Assembly (NCBI GenBank): GCA_029881635.1
Contig: JAOUMG010000111.1
Span: 1-6,685, forward strand
Reading direction: 5' to 3'
DNA: 6,685 bases
Source of the DNA: Paracoccaceae bacterium
GTDB taxonomy: Bacteria > Pseudomonadota > Alphaproteobacteria > Rhodobacterales > Rhodobacteraceae
Part shown: positions 898 through 6,648 of the stretch, one piece after another
How positions within the stretch are numbered: the first letter of the stretch is position 1
Layout of the letters: the number at the start of each line of letters is the position of its first letter
Notes under the pieces: model-generated
What the model was told of the DNA's origin: nothing
Seen by the model: only the letters and a program-made list of their open reading frames with translations
Database searches by the model: none
Position numbers and translations under genes: made by a program

Positions 898-911
898 TGG
901 AAACGTTTCCA
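898..911. promoter_or_regulatory. LacI-family operator palindrome
   Basis: TGGAAACGTTTCCA is a perfect 14-bp palindrome with the central CG step typical of LacI/GalR-family operators, whose hinge helix inserts a leucine at that step. It lies 15 bases upstream of the chosen GTG start of the adjacent LacI-family gene, at the end of an AT-rich promoter-like region (about 840-897). That position suits blocking of RNA polymerase and autoregulation of the whole downstream operon. I saw no second copy elsewhere in the window. Confidence 0.8.
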
Positions 912-926: not shown

Positions 927-2036
927 GTGCGCCAGCCAGTGACGATAAAAGATGTTGCCCACTATGCAGGCTGCGGGGTTGCTTCTGTCAGCCGTGTTTT
1001 AAACAGATCTGGCCCGTCCAGTGCGGGTCTGCGCCAACGGGTGCTGGCGGCGGTCGACGAACTCGGATTTGAATTCAGTGAGGTTGGGCGCGCACTTCAA
1101 AGCAATACCACCCGGACGATCGGTTGCGTGGTCCCCTCTTTGGCAAACCCGGTCTACGCGGACGCGGTTCAAGGTGCGCAAGAGGCGTTTCGAATGGCTG
1201 GGTACCAGACCCTGCTTGTATGTACGAATTACGATCCCGAAATTGAAATGCAGGCCATTCGAACCCTGACCGCCAAGCAAGTCGACGGGTTTGTTCTGAC
1301 AGTCAGCGATGCCCGCGCGAGCGACGGCTTGAAGTTAATTCAAAGCCGCGAAATACCGCATTGTTTGTTGTTCAACATGGCACCGGATGGTGAATACAGC
1401 TGGTCGGTTGATGATTGTTCGGCCGCAATGGCTGTGTCGGACGCGTTTGCCGAAAAGGGTCACCGTCATGTGGGCTTTCTGGCGCTCAAGTTCAAAAGCT
1501 CTGACCGCGCGCGCCAACGCTATGAAGGTTTTGTCGAAGGCAGTTTTCGTAATGGTATGATTAAGCCAGCCTTGCTGGAAATCGAGGAAGACAGCCAGAA
1601 TCTGAATGACCTGATAAAAGAATTTCTGCGAACCAATCCGACCATGACCGGCATATTCGCATCCAACGACTTTCTGGCGCTGGCGGCGATCCGTAGCATC
1701 CGTTCGCTCGGGATGAATGTGCCAAGGGATCTTTCGATTGTCGGCTTCGACGGAATCGAAGTGGGCAAGATGGTAGAACCCAGCCTGGCGACGATATTAA
1801 CCGATCCGAGAATGATGGGTGACGGCGCCGCCAAGACCGTTTTGTCGATCATCAATGGCACGCCGCCGACCGACACGCCTGATCCCACACAATCATACAG
1901 TTTCCGCGCAGGGGGAAGTCTTGCCCCGGTGACCGCTGAAAGAGCAGACGACGAAAAGGTTGCAGCCTTTTCGTCGTCAAACAATCCAACCAAGAAGAAC
2001 GCTAAATCCAACTGGAGAGACCAAAATGAGATATAA
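927..2036 (+). CDS. LacI/GalR-family transcriptional repressor of the transporter operon
   Basis: The 369-residue product has the standard layout. A LacI helix-turn-helix lies at about residues 5-26 (VTIKDVAHYAG then VASVSRVLN). A hinge around 53-61 carries the minor-groove leucine L57 (RALQSN) and is followed by TRTIG-VVPSLANPVYA. A periplasmic-binding-protein-like effector domain runs to about 334, including GIFASNDFLALAAIRSIRSLG and LSIVGFDGIE. It should bind the palindrome just upstream and release it when its ligand, probably the transported compound or a breakdown product, binds. GTG at 927 is preferred over GTG at 897 on the ribosome-binding site, operator position and family N-terminus. 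Family members usually end near the GGSLAP motif; here about 35 low-complexity, Asn/Lys-rich residues follow, encoded by a hairpin and by the next gene's ribosome-binding site. The stop overlaps the binding-protein gene by 11 bases, implying co-transcription and translational coupling. Confidence 0.9.
   Translation: MRQPVTIKDVAHYAGCGVASVSRVLNRSGPSSAGLRQRVLAAVDELGFEFSEVGRALQSNTTRTIGCVVPSLANPVYADAVQGAQEAFRMAGYQTLLVCTNYDPEIEMQAIRTLTAKQVDGFVLTVSDARASDGLKLIQSREIPHCLLFNMAPDGEYSWSVDDCSAAMAVSDAFAEKGHRHVGFLALKFKSSDRARQRYEGFVEGSFRNGMIKPALLEIEEDSQNLNDLIKEFLRTNPTMTGIFASNDFLALAAIRSIRSLGMNVPRDLSIVGFDGIEVGKMVEPSLATILTDPRMMGDGAAKTVLSIINGTPPTDTPDPTQSYSFRAGGSLAPVTAERADDEKVAAFSSSNNPTKKNAKSNWRDQNEI
1947..1978 (+). 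other. Strong hairpin inside the 3' end of the repressor gene
   Basis: GACGACGAAAAGG (1947-1959) pairs perfectly with CCTTTTCGTCGTC (1966-1978): 13 bp with a 6-base loop TTGCAG. It ends 47 bases before the binding-protein start. No T-run follows (AAACAATCC), so full termination is unlikely. Its place between a regulator and an abundant periplasmic protein suits an mRNA-processing, 5'-stabilising or attenuating element. It is translated as part of the repressor's unusual C-terminal tail. Confidence 0.65.
2014..2019 (+). promoter_or_regulatory. Ribosome-binding site of the substrate-binding protein gene
   Basis: GGAGAG lies 6 bases before the ATG at 2026 and within the repressor's reading frame. 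It selects this ATG over the upstream in-frame ATG at 1960, which falls in the hairpin loop region and would add 22 residues in front of a clean signal peptide. Confidence 0.8.
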
Positions 2037-3021
2037 ACTTGCAGCCGCCTTCATGACAATGACTATCGCGTCACCGGTTTTCGCCGAAGATGCCGTATGC
2101 TACAACTGCCCGCCGCAATGGGCCGACTGGGCGTCGATGCTGGAAGCGATTGACAAAGAAATCGACATCCAGATGCCGCATGACAACAAGAACTCTGGGC
2201 AAACCCTCAGCCAGCTTTTGGCCGAGAAAGACAATCCGATTGCCGACGTCGCTTATTACGGTGTGACCACAGGCATCAAGGCGGGCAACGAAGGCGTGGC
2301 CGCCGCCTACAAACCCGCCAAGTTTGACGAAATTCCCGATGGACTCAAGGATGCGGATGGCAAATGGTTCGCCGTTCACTACGGCACCCTCGGCTTTTTC
2401 GTGAATGTGGATGCCTTGGGCGGTGCTGCGGTGCCGCAATGCTTTGCCGATCTGACCAAACCTGAATATCGGGGCATGGTCGGCTATCTTGATCCATCAT
2501 CGGCCTTTGTCGGCTATGCGGGTGCGGTTGCCGCCAACATCGCCTTTGGTGGCGATCTGGACAATTTCGACCCGGCGATCAAATACTTCAACGACCTGGC
2601 TGCAAATGATCCGATCGTGCCCAAGCAGACGTCCTATGCGCGGGTCGTATCCGGTGAAATACCGATCCTGTTCGACTATGACTTCAACGCCTATCGCGGC
2701 AAATACGAAGAAGATGGCAATTTTGAATTTGTCCTTCCCTGCGAAGGCTCTGTCAGGGTGCCATACGTGATGAGTCTGGTGAACAACGGTCCGCATCCGG
2801 ATCTGGGCAAACGGGTTCTGGATTTCATTCTGTCCGACAAGGGGCAGGCGATTTGGACAAATGCCTATTTGCAGCCTGCGCGCCCGGTCGAATTGCCTGC
2901 AGACGTGGCCGCAAAGTTTCTGCCCGCCAGCGACTATGAGCGTGCCGTTGCAGTGGATTACGCCGAGATGGAAAAAGCGCAAGCCGGCTTTGGCGAACGC
3001 TACCTTTCCGAAGTCCAGTAA
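2026..3021 (+). CDS. Periplasmic substrate-binding protein of an ABC importer (PotD/AfuA-like class)
   Basis: The protein has 331 residues and begins with a Sec signal peptide: MRYK, a hydrophobic core and a likely cut after SPVFA (residue 20). There is no lipobox. The mature part starts like many iron/polyamine/phosphonate-type binding proteins, with a first strand followed by QWADWASMLEAIDKE. A ligand-loop region follows (DNKNSGQTLSQLLAEKDNP, residues 53-71), then a crossover region with HYGTLGFFVNVDAL (118-131), and the C-terminal lobe with SVRVPYVMSLVNNGPHPDLGKRVLDFILS. It captures the solute in the periplasm and delivers it to the two permeases encoded next. Four cysteines (C25, C28, C139, C239) are unusual for this class; C25 and C28 form a CxxC at the mature N-terminus. 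The cargo cannot be told from sequence; the phosphodiesterase at the operon end suggests a phosphodiester. The iron-binding tyrosine pair of FbpA-type proteins is not evident to me. A hairpin follows 15 bases after the stop. Confidence 0.9.
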   Translation: MRYKLAAAFMTMTIASPVFAEDAVCYNCPPQWADWASMLEAIDKEIDIQMPHDNKNSGQTLSQLLAEKDNPIADVAYYGVTTGIKAGNEGVAAAYKPAKFDEIPDGLKDADGKWFAVHYGTLGFFVNVDALGGAAVPQCFADLTKPEYRGMVGYLDPSSAFVGYAGAVAANIAFGGDLDNFDPAIKYFNDLAANDPIVPKQTSYARVVSGEIPILFDYDFNAYRGKYEEDGNFEFVLPCEGSVRVPYVMSLVNNGPHPDLGKRVLDFILSDKGQAIWTNAYLQPARPVELPADVAAKFLPASDYERAVAVDYAEMEKAQAGFGERYLSEVQ

Positions 3022-3036
3022 CCTTGCTCTGAAAGG

Positions 3037-3062
3037 AGGGGCCGGCACAAATTCCGGCCCCT
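3037..3062 (+). other. Intercistronic hairpin between binding-protein and first permease genes
   Basis: AGGGGCCGG (3037-3045) pairs with CCGGCCCCT (3054-3062): a 9-bp stem with loop CACAAATT. The next bases (GCCCTACC) hold no T-run. It lies where ABC importers often carry a structure that protects the highly expressed binding-protein mRNA and lowers permease expression. The purine run GAAAGG (3031-3036) sits directly before the stem and the permease ATG 10 bases after it, so folding would bring a Shine-Dalgarno-like stretch close to the start. Confidence 0.65.
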
Positions 3063-3072
3063 GCCCTACCTC

Positions 3073-3876
3073 ATGTCAAACCGACAATTCGTTCTGGCGT
3101 GCCTGACGCCACTATTCATCTTCTCGCTGGCTTTTCTGGCCCTGCCCTTGGTGCGCCTGTTCCTGGCCTCGGGTGAGGGTGAGAATGGCTGGGCTATCTA
3201 TCTCGATATCCTTCGTAAACCGCGCTATCTCAACACGCTTTGGATGACGGTTCTGGTGTCAATCTCGGTGACGTTTACGGCGCTGGCGATATCAACCACG
3301 GCGGGCATGTTCCTGTCACGCAACCGGTTTCGCGGGCGGGGTGTGCTTTTGTCGATCATGACGCTGCCGCTGGCATTTCCCGGTGTGGTCATCGGGTTTC
3401 TGATCATCTTGCTTGGCGGGCGTCAGGGGCTGATCAACCAGATCACGCCGGGTCACGTGGTCTTTGCATATTCGGTCATCGGCTTGTTTCTGGGATATCT
3501 CTATTTCTCGATCCCACGGGTATTGCTGACCGTCATGGCCGCCGCCGAGAAGCTGGACCCACCGCTGGAGGAGGCTGCCCGTACACTTGGCGCATCGCCC
3601 TACCGTGTCGTGATCGACGTGATCCTGCCCGGCTTGATGCCTTCGCTGATCGCTGCAGGCGCAATCGCCTTTGCCACCGCCATGGGAGCCTTTGGAACGG
3701 CCTTCACGCTGGCCACAAACATCGATGTGCTGCCAATGGTGATCTACACGGAATTCACCCTGTCGGCCAATATCGCCATGGCCTCGGCGCTGTCCATTGT
3801 ACTGGGTATTGTGACCTGGGCGTTATTGCTGATCGCGCGCAGCCTGTCGGGTACAACCGTCGCGGCGGGGGGGTAA
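3073..3876 (+). CDS. ABC importer permease subunit 1
   Basis: This 267-residue integral membrane protein of the binding-protein-dependent transport family has about six hydrophobic segments (roughly residues 8-31, 55-80, 91-114, 130-150, 190-215 and 236-258). The cytoplasmic EAA loop is at about 167-186 (EAARTLGASPYRVVIDVILP), which docks to the ATPase; it has the canonical EAA, the glycine three residues later and the closing I-LP. It would form a heterodimeric channel in the inner membrane with the next product. Size and motif order match the PotB/PotH type. The ATG at 3073 has no local Shine-Dalgarno sequence (TGCCCTACCTC precedes it); an intercistronic hairpin stands between it and a purine-rich stretch. 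The next gene starts one base after its stop, so translation is probably coupled. Confidence 0.93.
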   Translation: MSNRQFVLACLTPLFIFSLAFLALPLVRLFLASGEGENGWAIYLDILRKPRYLNTLWMTVLVSISVTFTALAISTTAGMFLSRNRFRGRGVLLSIMTLPLAFPGVVIGFLIILLGGRQGLINQITPGHVVFAYSVIGLFLGYLYFSIPRVLLTVMAAAEKLDPPLEEAARTLGASPYRVVIDVILPGLMPSLIAAGAIAFATAMGAFGTAFTLATNIDVLPMVIYTEFTLSANIAMASALSIVLGIVTWALLLIARSLSGTTVAAGG

Positions 3877-3877
3877 G

Positions 3878-4669
3878 ATGCACAAATCAAAAGCAAAAAT
3901 GCTGCAACTGATCGTTACCCTAAGCGCATGCGCCTTCCTTTTCGTGCCCACGATCCTTTCGGTCATGGCAGGTGTCACCGCGAATTACTTTCAGGGTATT
4001 TCGTCAGGCCTTACCCTCAAATGGGTTTTCCGTGTGTGGGAGCTTTATGCCGATAGTATCTTTCTGTCGCTCTGGCTTGCGATTGCCTGTCTGTTTTGCA
4101 CCCTTCTGATCGGCCTGCCTGCCGCATATGGGCTGGCGCGGCACCCCGGCTGGCTGTCGCGGATCTTGGAGGAGTTCATTTCGCTTCCTCTCGCCGTTCC
4201 CGGCCTTGCGCTGGCACTGGCGCTCTTGCAGCTTTACGGCTCAATGAAGGGGTTTCGCGCCTCATGGACCTTCATCCTTGTCGGGCATGTACTTTACACA
4301 CTGCCCTTCATGGTCCGCTCAATTCTGGCGGTCCTGGCAGCCATAGACCTCAAAACGCTTGAAGAAGGGGCTGCCACCCTTGGCGCATCGCCCTGGCAGA
4401 GGTTTCGTGACATCGTCGTGCCCAACGCCATGCCGGGTATCCTGGCAGGCGCGCTGACGGTCGTGACGCTGTCGATCGGCGAATTCAACCTGACCTGGAT
4501 GCTGCACACGCCTTACCTGAAAACCCTGCCCGTCGGGCTGGCAGACAGCTATGCCTCAATGCGCCTTGAAGTGGCCTCTGCCTATACACTCGTCTTCTTC
4601 GTTCTCATCGTTCCACTATTAATGGCCATGCAATGGGCCTCGGCGCGTGCGCAAAGGATTGCTCAATGA
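3878..4669 (+). CDS. ABC importer permease subunit 2
   Basis: This 263-residue inner-membrane permease is the partner of the preceding one. It has about six hydrophobic segments (roughly residues 9-31, 60-86, 103-121, 130-154, 184-205 and 237-257). An EAA-type loop lies at about 163-182 (EGAATLGASPWQRFRDIVVP); here the first alanine of EAA is glycine, a mild departure. The TLGASP core is shared with subunit 1, as expected for related halves of one channel. The G-run at 3867-3873, at the end of the previous gene, serves as ribosome-binding site for ATG 3878. An in-frame ATG at 3899 is a less likely alternative that would drop a short basic N-terminus. Its TGA overlaps the ATPase start in an ATGA junction. 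Confidence 0.93.
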   Translation: MHKSKAKMLQLIVTLSACAFLFVPTILSVMAGVTANYFQGISSGLTLKWVFRVWELYADSIFLSLWLAIACLFCTLLIGLPAAYGLARHPGWLSRILEEFISLPLAVPGLALALALLQLYGSMKGFRASWTFILVGHVLYTLPFMVRSILAVLAAIDLKTLEEGAATLGASPWQRFRDIVVPNAMPGILAGALTVVTLSIGEFNLTWMLHTPYLKTLPVGLADSYASMRLEVASAYTLVFFVLIVPLLMAMQWASARAQRIAQ

Positions 4670-5700
4670 CCCTTCGCCTGACCAATACCGCCAAAACCTA
4701 TCCCGATGGGACAAAGGCCCTGATGCCAACGGATCTGACCGTTGAGACGGGTGAAGTGGTATCGCTGCTGGGACCTTCGGGATGTGGCAAAACCACCTTG
4801 CTGCGGATCATTGCCGGGCTGGAAACACCTGATACAGGCGGCGAGATCTGGTTTGATGACGACAACGTCACCGCCCAACCGGTAGAGCGGCGCAATGTCG
4901 GCATGGTCTTTCAGTCCTATGCCTTGTTCCCCAACATGTCGGTGGGTGCCAATGTTGGCTATGGCCTGAAAATGCAAAAACTGTCAAAGCCTGAAATCGA
5001 CGCCCGCGTCACCCAGGTGCTCGAGATGTGTCAGCTTGAAAAGTTTTCACATAGGTCAATCTCGGCACTTTCTGGCGGGCAGCGCCAAAGGGTGGCTCTT
5101 GCGCGTGCCATAGCGCCGCGTCCAAGGCTGCTATTGCTGGATGAACCGCTCTCGGCGCTGGATGCAGCCTTGCGCGAAACCTTGCGGGATGAGCTGGCAA
5201 TTCTGCTTCGGAAATTTCAGATCACCGCCATTTTCGTGACCCACGATCAGGACGAAGCCATGGCAATCGCCGACCGCGTCGCCGTGATGGCAGAGGGCCG
5301 TGTCGTTCAAAGCGGCACCCCCGAAGAGCTTTACCGCAATCCGACATCAGCCTTTGTGGCCGGGTTCGTCGGCAATGCGATGCAGTTGCACGGCACGCAC
5401 GACGGGATGCTGTTGAAACTCTCCGGCGGCGTTTTACCCTTGGGGCGTGATGGTACCGGGCAAGATATCTTTGTTCGTGCCGAGGATGTCCTGATTGATT
5501 CAAGCGGACCGCTCAAGGGGCAGGTTGAAACGGTCACATTCCTTGGCACCCATTACCGTGTCGGGATCGGTGGCCTCATGCCGGAAATCCTGATCTCGAT
5601 CTTTCCCGGCCAGAGCGCGCCGCGCATCGGCGAGACGGTACAAGTCTCGATCAAACCTGAAAGCCTGATGTTGCTTCCTCAGACAGGGCGCGGCAAATGA
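4666..5700 (+). CDS. ABC importer ATPase (PotA/UgpC/FbpC-type)
   Basis: The 344-residue cytoplasmic ATPase powers the importer. All nucleotide-binding elements are intact: Walker A GPSGCGKT (residues 36-43), Q-loop Q83 in VFQSYALFPNMSV, signature LSGGQ (135-139), Walker B LLLLDE (155-160), D-loop SALD (163-166) and H-loop H193 in FVTHDQDEA. The remaining ~110 residues form a short TOBE-like C-terminal region, as in MalK/PotA-class proteins that bind small solute importers. ATG 4666 overlaps the permease stop by 4 bases and has a good ribosome-binding site, AAAGGA (4653-4658), 7 bases upstream. The longer in-frame start at 4633 is disfavoured because it would add an untypical MGLGACAKDCS leader. 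It ends in a 4-base ATGA overlap with the phosphodiesterase gene, which argues that the enzyme and importer are made together. Confidence 0.95.
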   Translation: MTLRLTNTAKTYPDGTKALMPTDLTVETGEVVSLLGPSGCGKTTLLRIIAGLETPDTGGEIWFDDDNVTAQPVERRNVGMVFQSYALFPNMSVGANVGYGLKMQKLSKPEIDARVTQVLEMCQLEKFSHRSISALSGGQRQRVALARAIAPRPRLLLLDEPLSALDAALRETLRDELAILLRKFQITAIFVTHDQDEAMAIADRVAVMAEGRVVQSGTPEELYRNPTSAFVAGFVGNAMQLHGTHDGMLLKLSGGVLPLGRDGTGQDIFVRAEDVLIDSSGPLKGQVETVTFLGTHYRVGIGGLMPEILISIFPGQSAPRIGETVQVSIKPESLMLLPQTGRGK

Positions 5701-6512
5701 CAAAGATCATCCAGATATCAGACCCCCACATCGTGCCTCATGGCCAGCTTGCTTATGGGCGTGTGGATACCGCACCCCCGCTGGCGGAATGCGTGGCAAC
5801 GATCAACCGGATGCTGCCGCTGATCGGCCCGATAGACATGGCAATTGTCACCGGAGATCTGACCGATTTCGGAACCGCCGAGGAATATCGCAGGTTTCGC
5901 GACATCATGGCGCAACTCGAAGTTCCCTATCAGGCCGTTCCCGGAAACCATGATATCAGGGACGCGATGCGTGCAGCGTTTTCGGATCAGGACTGGATGC
6001 CGAAAACGGGGGCCATAAACTGGCGACATGATCTGGCAGATCTGACGCTGATTGGACTGGATTCAACCGTTGACGGCGCATCGCACGGACATCTGACCGA
6101 AGCAACACTGGCCTATCTGCGAGAACAGCTATCCGATCTGAAGGGGCGACCTGTCATCGTGGCCCTTCACCATCCGCCGTTTTTAACCGGAATCGAAAAG
6201 ATGGATATCCAGAACCTGCGCGAAAGCCGCCCGCTTGCAGAAATTCTGTCGGCCTACACTGGCGAACTCAAGCTTATTTGCGGCCATGTTCATCGCAATA
6301 TTGTCAGCATCTTCGGTGGTGTTGTCTGCCAGATCGCACCGGGCACGTCGCATGCTGTCAGTATGGACCAGCGTATCGGTGCGCCCAACTGCCTGACCAA
6401 GGAACCTGGCGGGTTTTTATTGCACGAAATGCGCTCTGGCCTTGTAACTCACACCATACCGATCGGTCAGTTTGACGGACCTTGGCTTTTCTATTCAGAT
6501 GCGCGCGAATGA
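5697..6512 (+). CDS. Cytoplasmic GpdQ-like metallophosphodiesterase
   Basis: The 271-residue protein belongs to the calcineurin-like (class III) phosphodiesterases. The full dinuclear metal site is visible: D9 and H11 (SDPH), D54 (TGDLTD), N84 and H85 (GNHD), H158 (HHPP), H197 and H199 (GHVH). These match the ligands known for Enterobacter glycerophosphodiesterase GpdQ (D8, H10, D50, N80, H156, H195, H197). Other features also recall GpdQ more than generic cAMP phosphodiesterases: the near-equal length, HPPFLTGIEKMD, the APGTSHAV segment (GpdQ: LPGTVHQV) and the closing GPWLF. There is no signal peptide, so it acts on material inside the cell. The start overlaps the ATPase stop by 4 bases. 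It probably cleaves the imported compound, releasing an alcohol and a phosphomonoester. A cyclic-nucleotide phosphodiesterase (CpdA-like) or 2',3'-cyclic nucleotide activity remains possible. Confidence 0.88.
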   Translation: MTKIIQISDPHIVPHGQLAYGRVDTAPPLAECVATINRMLPLIGPIDMAIVTGDLTDFGTAEEYRRFRDIMAQLEVPYQAVPGNHDIRDAMRAAFSDQDWMPKTGAINWRHDLADLTLIGLDSTVDGASHGHLTEATLAYLREQLSDLKGRPVIVALHHPPFLTGIEKMDIQNLRESRPLAEILSAYTGELKLICGHVHRNIVSIFGGVVCQIAPGTSHAVSMDQRIGAPNCLTKEPGGFLLHEMRSGLVTHTIPIGQFDGPWLFYSDARE

Positions 6513-6536: not shown

Positions 6537-6594
6537 AGTCCTGTCAACATTCTGAGTAATTGAACCGCAGTTTTCCCCTGTCAAACAAGGAAAA

Positions 6595-6618
6595 CGCGCG
6601 GGGCAATCGCCCCGCGCG
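6595..6618 (-). terminator. Rho-independent terminator of the convergent minus-strand gene
   Basis: CGCGCGGGGC (6595-6604) pairs with GCCCCGCGCG (6609-6618): a 10-bp all-GC stem with a 4-base loop. On the minus strand the stem is followed directly by TTTTCC, as in an intrinsic terminator. On the plus strand the following bases are CGGTGGTC, so it fits minus-strand transcription better, though the stem could also slow transcription arriving from the transporter operon. Confidence 0.75.
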
Positions 6619-6648
6619 CGGTGGTCTTCCGGGAGTGGTAACCTAGTC

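Follow-up and report, generated by a model that had tools for sequence, protein, structure and literature searches.

The window analysed here, a whole contig of 6,685 bases (C571) from a draft genome of 89.6% completeness, carries six plus-strand genes which form a tight operon, lacI-SBP-TM1-TM2-ATPase-PDE. They encode a LacI-family regulator, the periplasmic substrate-binding protein (SBP), the two permeases and the ATPase of an ATP-binding cassette (ABC) importer and a GpdQ-like phosphodiesterase (PDE). We propose that this operon imports an intact phosphodiester and cleaves it in the cytosol, a function which is well supported by genomic context and which we hold with considerable confidence. 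The diester is predicted to be a glycerophosphodiester, a small compound of lipid origin which would be cleaved to glycerol-3-phosphate and an alcohol and would supply phosphorus and carbon, and this assignment appears probable.

Linkage of importer and phosphodiesterase

A PDE-anchored scan of genome contigs yielded 47 loci, in 38 of which all six genes recur in the same order and on the same strand, so that their close packing in the window is not a matter of chance. Two further loci deviate slightly, L052 lacking only LacI and L055 being cut by the contig end. The remaining seven comprise two which carry a second, UgpB-like cassette (L045, L046), two seeming remnants (L038, L047) and three without a recognised importer (L032, L056, L057). 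The PDE-anchored loci are found in Roseobacters, Stappiaceae, Rhodomicrobium, Caballeronia, Herbaspirillum, Pseudomonas, Pantoea and Enterobacter, and the linkage of the PDE spans three proteobacterial classes. L038/L103 and L047 look like broken cassettes, with PDE matches in two frames and a short ATPase match; the L047 remnant adjoins a cassette of the second type, hinting at replacement.

Surveys anchored on the SBP lead to a similar picture. Within the family, the SBP is found at E <= 1e-90 in 8 of 199 genomes, and all eight (the window included) carry the PDE no more than 4 kb away in the same orientation. Such a patchy distribution is consistent with transfer of the whole unit or with recurrent loss. 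Within the class, 26 of 385 genomes contain the SBP; 20 of the 25 others were fetched, and in 17 of these the PDE is situated 3.7-4.0 kb from the SBP start. Altogether, the PDE is linked in 24 of 27 SBP-anchored genomes besides that of the window, one of which (G111) is also counted in the PDE-anchored set as L023. Among 627 plasmid records with any match, all 15 with an SBP identity of about 60% or more show the PDE some 3.5-4 kb downstream on the same strand. An original prediction, made from the sequence of the window alone, had named rare linkage of the PDE to this transporter as the outcome that would speak against import followed by cytoplasmic hydrolysis; such rarity is not borne out, and the conserved linkage supports that reading. 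We would like to add that between the window and L011-L018 the SBP is 91-96% and the PDE 69-77% identical, the binder being the slower of the two to evolve.

Enzyme, binding protein and nature of the ligand

The N-terminus of the PDE (MTKIIQISDPH), judged by eye, contains no signal peptide, in agreement with the original prediction. Residues D9, H11, D54, N84, H158, H197 and H199, which correspond to the binuclear metal residues (D, H, D, N, H, H, H) in the calcineurin-like core of GpdQ-like class III phosphodiesterases, are invariant in all 31 alignment rows. GpdQ represents the closest solved fold, about 25% identical in structural alignment, while Rv0805 ranks lower; here and for the SBP, the fold comparisons rank the families in the match lists and make no claim to exclude others. 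In the genome scan, the closest relatives of the window PDE come from Roseovarius. In the PDE tree, the enzymes of the cassette do not form one clade: six label changes are required, at least four of them forced by well-supported branches, and the PDEs of UgpB-like cassettes need two changes; GpdQ and three others form long branches.

The top NCBIfam name for the PDE, SpdA (2',3'-cyclic nucleotides; 126 of 400 bits), would suit a different phosphodiester as ligand, be it a 2',3'- or 3',5'-cyclic nucleotide, a short nucleotide or a sugar phosphodiester, whose sugar or nucleoside part LacI would sense. Both SpdA and CpdA (108.3 of 225 bits), however, lie far under their cut-offs, GpdQ precedes Rv0805 in the fold comparison, and the recurring metabolic neighbours, among those labelled, are glycerol-3-phosphate dehydrogenase (GlpD), HAD phosphatases and Na/Pi transporters. 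We regard such a substrate as rather unlikely.

The SBP possesses a Sec-type signal peptide, ending in SPVFA ahead of ED as judged by eye. It had been assigned to a "PotD/AfuA class", within which its nearest relatives are AfuA, PhnS and 5t1p, a C. jejuni protein whose ligand is not named, rather than PotD. When solved proteins are ranked by sequence, the top five either bind organophosphates or are unnamed; in the structural comparison, the iron binders fall at least 2 Z units behind 5t1p, AfuA, PhnS and VcA0625. For the PhnS/PhnS2 equivalogs of NCBIfam, its best score is 90.1 bits (cut-off 310). No UgpB model is found among its NCBIfam matches and PF13343 is the best match, which places it outside CUT1. 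S57, invariant in 35 alignment rows, aligns with the phosphate-binding Ser/Thr at the helix start of AfuA (S37) and P5PA (details of the latter from excerpts of PMC8427247). W32, W35 and a DYDFNAY motif are likewise conserved in the SBP. The sugar triad of AfuA (H205, D206, E229) is replaced by N221, A222 and V245, according to an alignment read by eye with an inferred numbering offset of 2. Membership of the PDE in SpdA or CpdA and of the SBP in PhnS or AfuA was rejected, the scores being under cut-off or residues missing.

In source annotations, close homologs of the SBP are often named "putative spermidine/putrescine transport system substrate-binding protein", and ferric-binding proteins share its fold, tying with P5PA in the structure comparison. 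Both facts would accord with an iron or polyamine transporter next to which the PDE is an unrelated co-transcribed gene. The ranking with organophosphate binders in sequence and structure, which led us to reject iron or polyamine transport, and the PDE linkage across three classes render this highly improbable. AfuA itself was formerly named an iron binder (PMC4546632).

More deserving of discussion is an importer of a phosphomonoester (glycerol-3-phosphate, hexose phosphate) or a phosphonate (2-aminoethylphosphonate), with the PDE contributing a side activity or handling cytosolic by-products. Those solved relatives of the SBP whose ligands are known or putative (AfuA, VcA0625, P5PA; PhnS by name) bind phosphomonoesters or a phosphonate, UgpB and GpxB bind both glycerol phosphates according to excerpts of PMC12718374, and GlpD and Na/Pi would suit glycerol-3-phosphate equally well. 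Against this, the PDE is the constant enzyme of the cassette, with GlpD, HAD and Na/Pi varying from locus to locus, the three sugar-binding residues of AfuA are replaced, the SBP falls far short of the PhnS cut-off, and three annotated cassette regions (L007-L009), to which this check was limited, contain zero phosphonate catabolic genes. We consider this explanation unlikely.

A glycerophosphodiester is favoured over cyclic nucleotides and sugar diesters because of the helper genes GlpD, HAD-IIA and Na/Pi and of the parallel UgpB-like cassette. The helpers were sought in 66 cassette loci within 4 kb downstream (238 kb in total) and 4 kb upstream (205 kb). GlpD follows the cassette in three loci (L016, L018, L020), a HAD-IIA phosphatase in five (L021, L023, L029-L031) and an Na/Pi transporter in eight, every match lying downstream on the operon strand and none upstream or on the opposite strand. 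GlpD occurs in three arrangements (PDE-GlpD, PDE-HAD-GlpD-Na/Pi and PDE-Na/Pi-GlpD) and is firmly assigned (749-761 bits, cut-off 360). The presence of these genes at the operon end in relatives would be accounted for by use of glycerol-3-phosphate through GlpD or HAD and export of phosphate through Na/Pi. All 12 helper-bearing loci belong to alphaproteobacteria, with closely related ones among them (L029-L031; L021 and L023), hence the occurrences are not independent events. In the genome of the window itself, GlpD lies on another contig, two Na/Pi genes are present, and the sole GDPD match is on contig C159; no UgpB match was obtained in this incomplete assembly. In L024 (10629-12278), the Na/Pi gene is followed by an MttB-like gene of the trimethylamine methyltransferase family (247 bits, cut-off 525), an isolated and weak indication that the head group might be a quaternary amine. 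Behind the cassette, each of the eight Enterobacterales loci (L039-L044, L053, L054) carries a GGDEF-domain gene in the same orientation.

The family survey revealed 19 other places of the PDE. Thirteen were fetched, and ten of these belong to cassettes in which a DeoR-type regulator accompanies another kind of importer. In total, this second cassette was found at 14 loci (L105-L109, L111-L114, L116, L010, L045, L046, L047), ordered DeoR-ATPase-SBP-TM-TM-PDE in 11 and with DeoR between permeases and PDE in L045, L046 and L111. The top NCBIfam model for the L010 SBP is UgpB (160.6 bits, cut-off 411) and that for its regulator DeoR/GlpR (200.2 of 331), the remaining loci being assigned by BLAST to L010 (SBP 51-88%). 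Na/Pi follows in nine of the 14, together with GlpD in one (L112), and a divergent HAD-IIA gene is present in six. The unrelated importers of AfuA/PhnS and UgpB-like type hence share an enzyme family and a helper set, which constitutes the strongest argument for one and the same substrate class.

An E. coli IncF plasmid (L122) encodes a PDE which matches the GpdQ structure 2dxl over its full length, with 257 of 274 residues identical by manual count (17 differences, 94%). Its gene has those of two sugar-type permeases on one side and that of an ATPase on the other, in an operon (5229-10201) with a UgpB-like SBP (158.7 of 411 bits), which suggests a physiological context for GpdQ. This five-gene stretch is matched in 215 of 5,426 complete E. 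coli genomes, in 207 with at least 80% coverage, and 216 of the 219 places are plasmid-borne. The contrast drawn in the original prediction, that Ugp-type importers usually pair with GlpQ-type enzymes, has to be amended, since relatives of the window PDE, this near-copy of GpdQ included, pair with Ugp-type importers as well. Relatives of the PDE also accompany a dipeptide-type importer in Pseudosulfitobacter and a sugar-type importer in Arthrobacter, and the plasmid PDEs L123 and L124 have no adjacent ABC importer. On the Mesorhizobium plasmid pMLa (L125, 1-13088), a PDE relative and a dipeptide-type importer are located within a C-P lyase operon. L146 carries, in tail-to-tail orientation to the cassette, an extra PDE (34%) and a sugar-type importer. 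In L126 and L127, PDE relatives adjoin a gene product with the annotation tyrosine phosphatase (PF13350 in L126), which may be a phosphomonoesterase acting after the diesterase.

Eight weaker plasmid matches of the SBP (31-39% identity) were fetched. A haloarchaeal plasmid of Halopenitus (L058) shows the order SBP-TM-TM-ATPase-metallophosphoesterase, and in Meiothermus and Enterococcus (L062, L063) an enzyme of the PF01663 phosphodiesterase/nucleotide-pyrophosphatase type takes the place of the PDE. Such non-homologous phosphoesterases at an equivalent position again point to phosphoester ligands. The relatives L059, L060, L064 and L065 (34-37%), three of them with a SLOG-type TIGR00725 protein and two (L059, L065) beside an Na/Pi gene, are possibly other organophosphate importers; L061 has a "DNA-binding protein" in the seat held elsewhere by the TIGR00725 protein.

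Operon layout and predicted control

Profile matches in Pfam and NCBIfam confirm the families originally assigned (LacI, ABC importer, metallophosphodiesterase; Table 1), and the gene spacing proves to be as given there: lacI and the SBP gene overlap by 11 bases, gaps of 51 bases and of 1 base precede TM1 and TM2, respectively, and the ATPase and PDE genes each begin with a 4-base ATGA overlap, so that the PDE start codon overlaps the ATPase stop codon. The top NCBIfam model for the ATPase is PhnT2 (346.2 bits, under the cut-off of 457.7).

Table 1. Features of the window, with coordinates, strand and basis of assignment
Feature	Position	Strand	Basis
lacI: LacI-family regulator, helix-turn-helix (HTH) and periplasmic-binding-protein-like sensor	927..2036	+	PF00356, PF00532, PF13377; GTG start
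SBP: periplasmic substrate-binding protein, AfuA/PhnS group	2026..3021	+	SBP_bac_6 (PF13343); signal peptide by eye
TM1: ABC permease 1	3073..3876	+	BPD_transp_1 (PF00528)
TM2: ABC permease 2	3878..4669	+	BPD_transp_1 (PF00528)
ABC ATPase with TOBE_2 domain	4666..5700	+	ABC_tran (PF00005), TOBE_2 (PF08402)
PDE: GpdQ-like metallophosphodiesterase, predicted cytoplasmic	5697..6512	+	Metallophos (PF00149)
Palindrome TGGAAACGTTTCCA, predicted LacI-type operator	898..911	.	perfect 14-bp palindrome
G+C-rich hairpin, 11 pairs, 3' of PDE	6594..6619	.	T-run on minus strand

The last base of the perfect palindrome TGGAAACGTTTCCA lies 15 bases ahead of the lacI start, the usual place for an auto-repressing LacI; binding of LacI, auto-regulation and repression of the operon are predicted from this position. 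Among palindromes centred on CG in the 200 bases 5' of lacI at 40 loci, the identical 14-mer is perfect in 29, another perfect palindrome, TGAGATCGATCTCA, occurs in nine (Enterobacterales, Pseudomonas) and imperfect ones in two. All 14 positions are invariant in a 16-sequence alignment, while the flanks are mostly variable. With HTH, sensor domain and a predicted palindromic operator at its own operon, the regulator corresponds to a LacI-family local regulator. LacI is encoded in 13 of the 20 further class-survey loci. Two of these (L139, L148) have the perfect 14-mer and eight a variant of it with at least six of seven pairs, while neither is found in L140, L143 and L150. A DeoR-type gene replaces LacI in five class-survey loci (L153, L155-L158).

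Pho boxes were scored against the consensus (best out of 14) in the same 200 bases at the 40 loci, with 200 shuffles each. All eight Enterobacterales loci reach 12-14 (0-1 of 200 shuffles equal), all four Stappiaceae loci 11-12 (0 of 200), and L009, L048 and L050 reach 11 (1-3 of 200); in the other Roseobacter-type loci, at least 17 of 200 shuffles do as well as the locus itself. In the 20 class-survey loci, where raw scores over 300-base stretches were taken, the top score is 11 of 14 (L142, L146, L147, L155, L156). On a Roseovarius plasmid, the operon directly follows pst-phoU-phoB. According to Table 1 of PMC10132767, MED193_11288 (a predicted phosphodiesterase), 11293 and 11308 of Phaeobacter sp. 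MED193 are induced under phosphate stress, and in a phoB mutant the PDE and ATPase are undetected while the SBP still rises; this is a lead only, to possible kin of the window proteins.

The hairpin behind the PDE may act as terminator of a convergent gene or of both strands; seven terminator-like sites were found in the window, compared with a mean of 6.8 in shuffles. The Nudix gene at 228-713 (221.8 bits, NCBIfam RNA pyrophosphohydrolase cut-off 116) is an ordinary RppH.

Proposed function and related systems

In the proposed mechanism, LacI would occupy TGGAAACGTTTCCA just 5' of lacI and be released once substrate or product binds; in copies preceded by a Pho box (Enterobacterales, Stappiaceae), lack of phosphate would contribute to induction. 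The AfuA/PhnS-type SBP would hold the phosphate with the aid of the conserved S57 and recognise a non-hexose moiety at the far end of its pocket. Permeases and ATPase would bring the ester in uncut, and the signal-peptide-less PDE, coupled to the ATPase through its overlapping start, would cut one P-O bond in the cytosol. Glycerol-3-phosphate would be used by GlpD or a HAD phosphatase, the alcohol of the head group would enter a pathway of its own, and the Na/Pi-family carrier would export excess phosphate. Phosphate export by this family is known from YjbB of E. coli.

A number of observations weigh against uptake and cleavage of a glycerophosphodiester. Three of the 20 class-survey loci (L140, L148, L154) contain the importer without an adjacent PDE, and no enzyme replacing it was recognised there by eye in the listed frames, no family library having been run. 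Conversely, PDE homologs lack a recognised adjacent importer in L032, L056, L057, L104, L110, L115, L123 and L124. The top name of the PDE, as mentioned, is SpdA, and three distant SBP relatives (35-37%) adjoin the SLOG-family TIGR00725 protein, so that the ligands of the wider SBP group vary. GlpD accompanies the cassette in only 3 of 66 loci; 12 have at least one of the three helpers within 4 kb and 54 have none. Moreover, the queries were taken from L016, L023 and L029, and without these source matches GlpD drops to two, HAD-IIA to four and Na/Pi to seven. Other labelled downstream neighbours, an S49 peptidase (two loci, L014 and L015) and the GGDEF gene (eight loci), are uninformative on glycerol, and many neighbours are unlabelled. 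In the window, the 173 bases between PDE and contig end hold no GlpD, HAD or Na/Pi gene, and the best Pho-box score upstream of lacI, 9 of 14, is not significant, being reached in 109 of 200 shuffles. Finally, GlpD and Na/Pi could equally fit an importer of glycerol phosphate itself.

On a broader level, we lean slightly towards the view that the AfuA/PhnS-type system represents a third, structurally unrelated class of importer for glycerophosphate compounds, next to UgpB of CUT1 and the PhnD-like GpxB, feeding uncut diester to a dedicated cytosolic diesterase of GpdQ type. Enzymes of the GpdQ family, GpdQ itself included, would generally serve organophosphodiester importers as their partners in the cytosol and would have been joined to no fewer than three classes of them (AfuA/PhnS, UgpB-like, dipeptide-type), with carbon burned via GlpD and surplus phosphate leaving via the Na/Pi carrier. 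If so, a widespread and probably misnamed importer (spermidine/putrescine in several sources) would recycle membrane-lipid debris and thereby tie together phosphorus, carbon and head-group nitrogen in marine waters, in soil and on plant surfaces. GpdQ, an enzyme studied mainly for its chemistry, would gain a physiological role, a 94%-identical copy residing in an importer operon on E. coli plasmids.

In the part of the open PMC literature covered, we met no description of the cassette or of an operon of GpdQ, by which absence from print is not established; the word phosphodiesterase is absent from the main text of PMC12718374 and of the LacI regulon paper PMC4052901. XanT-XanP, as described in excerpts of PMC12807533, takes up and cleaves xanthosan by means of a TonB-dependent receptor and a 2H-phosphoesterase. 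As proposed for the window operon, the diester (in this case a sugar phosphodiester) is imported intact and then cleaved inside the bacterium, although the protein families differ by that description. GpxB and UgpB of Phaeobacter sp. MED193, which bind glycerol-1- and glycerol-3-phosphate, share with the window operon, for which it is predicted, the uptake of glycerophosphate compounds in marine Rhodobacterales, but are set apart by the classification given in the excerpts of PMC12718374, GpxB being of the PhnD class and UgpB of CUT1.

AfuABC (hexose-6-phosphate), P5PAB (pyridoxal phosphate) and PhnSTUV (2-aminoethylphosphonate) have the SBP group and the conserved phosphate serine in common with the window. 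In contrast to them, the window SBP lacks the sugar residues of AfuA and stays under the PhnS cut-offs, and a PDE belongs to the operon. With GpdQ of Enterobacter (Klebsiella) aerogenes, the window PDE shares the fold and the aligned metal residues; with the near-identical copy on E. coli IncF plasmids, it shares the location within an importer operon, whereas the plasmid importer is UgpB-like and the two enzymes are only distantly similar.

The classical E. coli system for uptake of glycerol-3-phosphate and glycerophosphodiesters, with a cytoplasmic diesterase, is UgpBAEC-UgpQ. The window operon resembles it in combining an ABC importer with its own cytosolic diesterase, in the predicted product glycerol-3-phosphate and in the Pho boxes ahead of some copies. 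Unlike UgpBAEC-UgpQ, it has an SBP of the AfuA/PhnS group instead of CUT1, a calcineurin-like PDE instead of a GDPD TIM barrel, and a LacI regulator; its sole enzyme is of PF00149, with no GDPD-fold (PF03009) diesterase in the operon. As it has neither a CUT1 binder nor a GDPD enzyme, the window operon is not a member of the Ugp-UgpQ system, with which it would nevertheless share the plan of importing a diester and cleaving it inside the cell.

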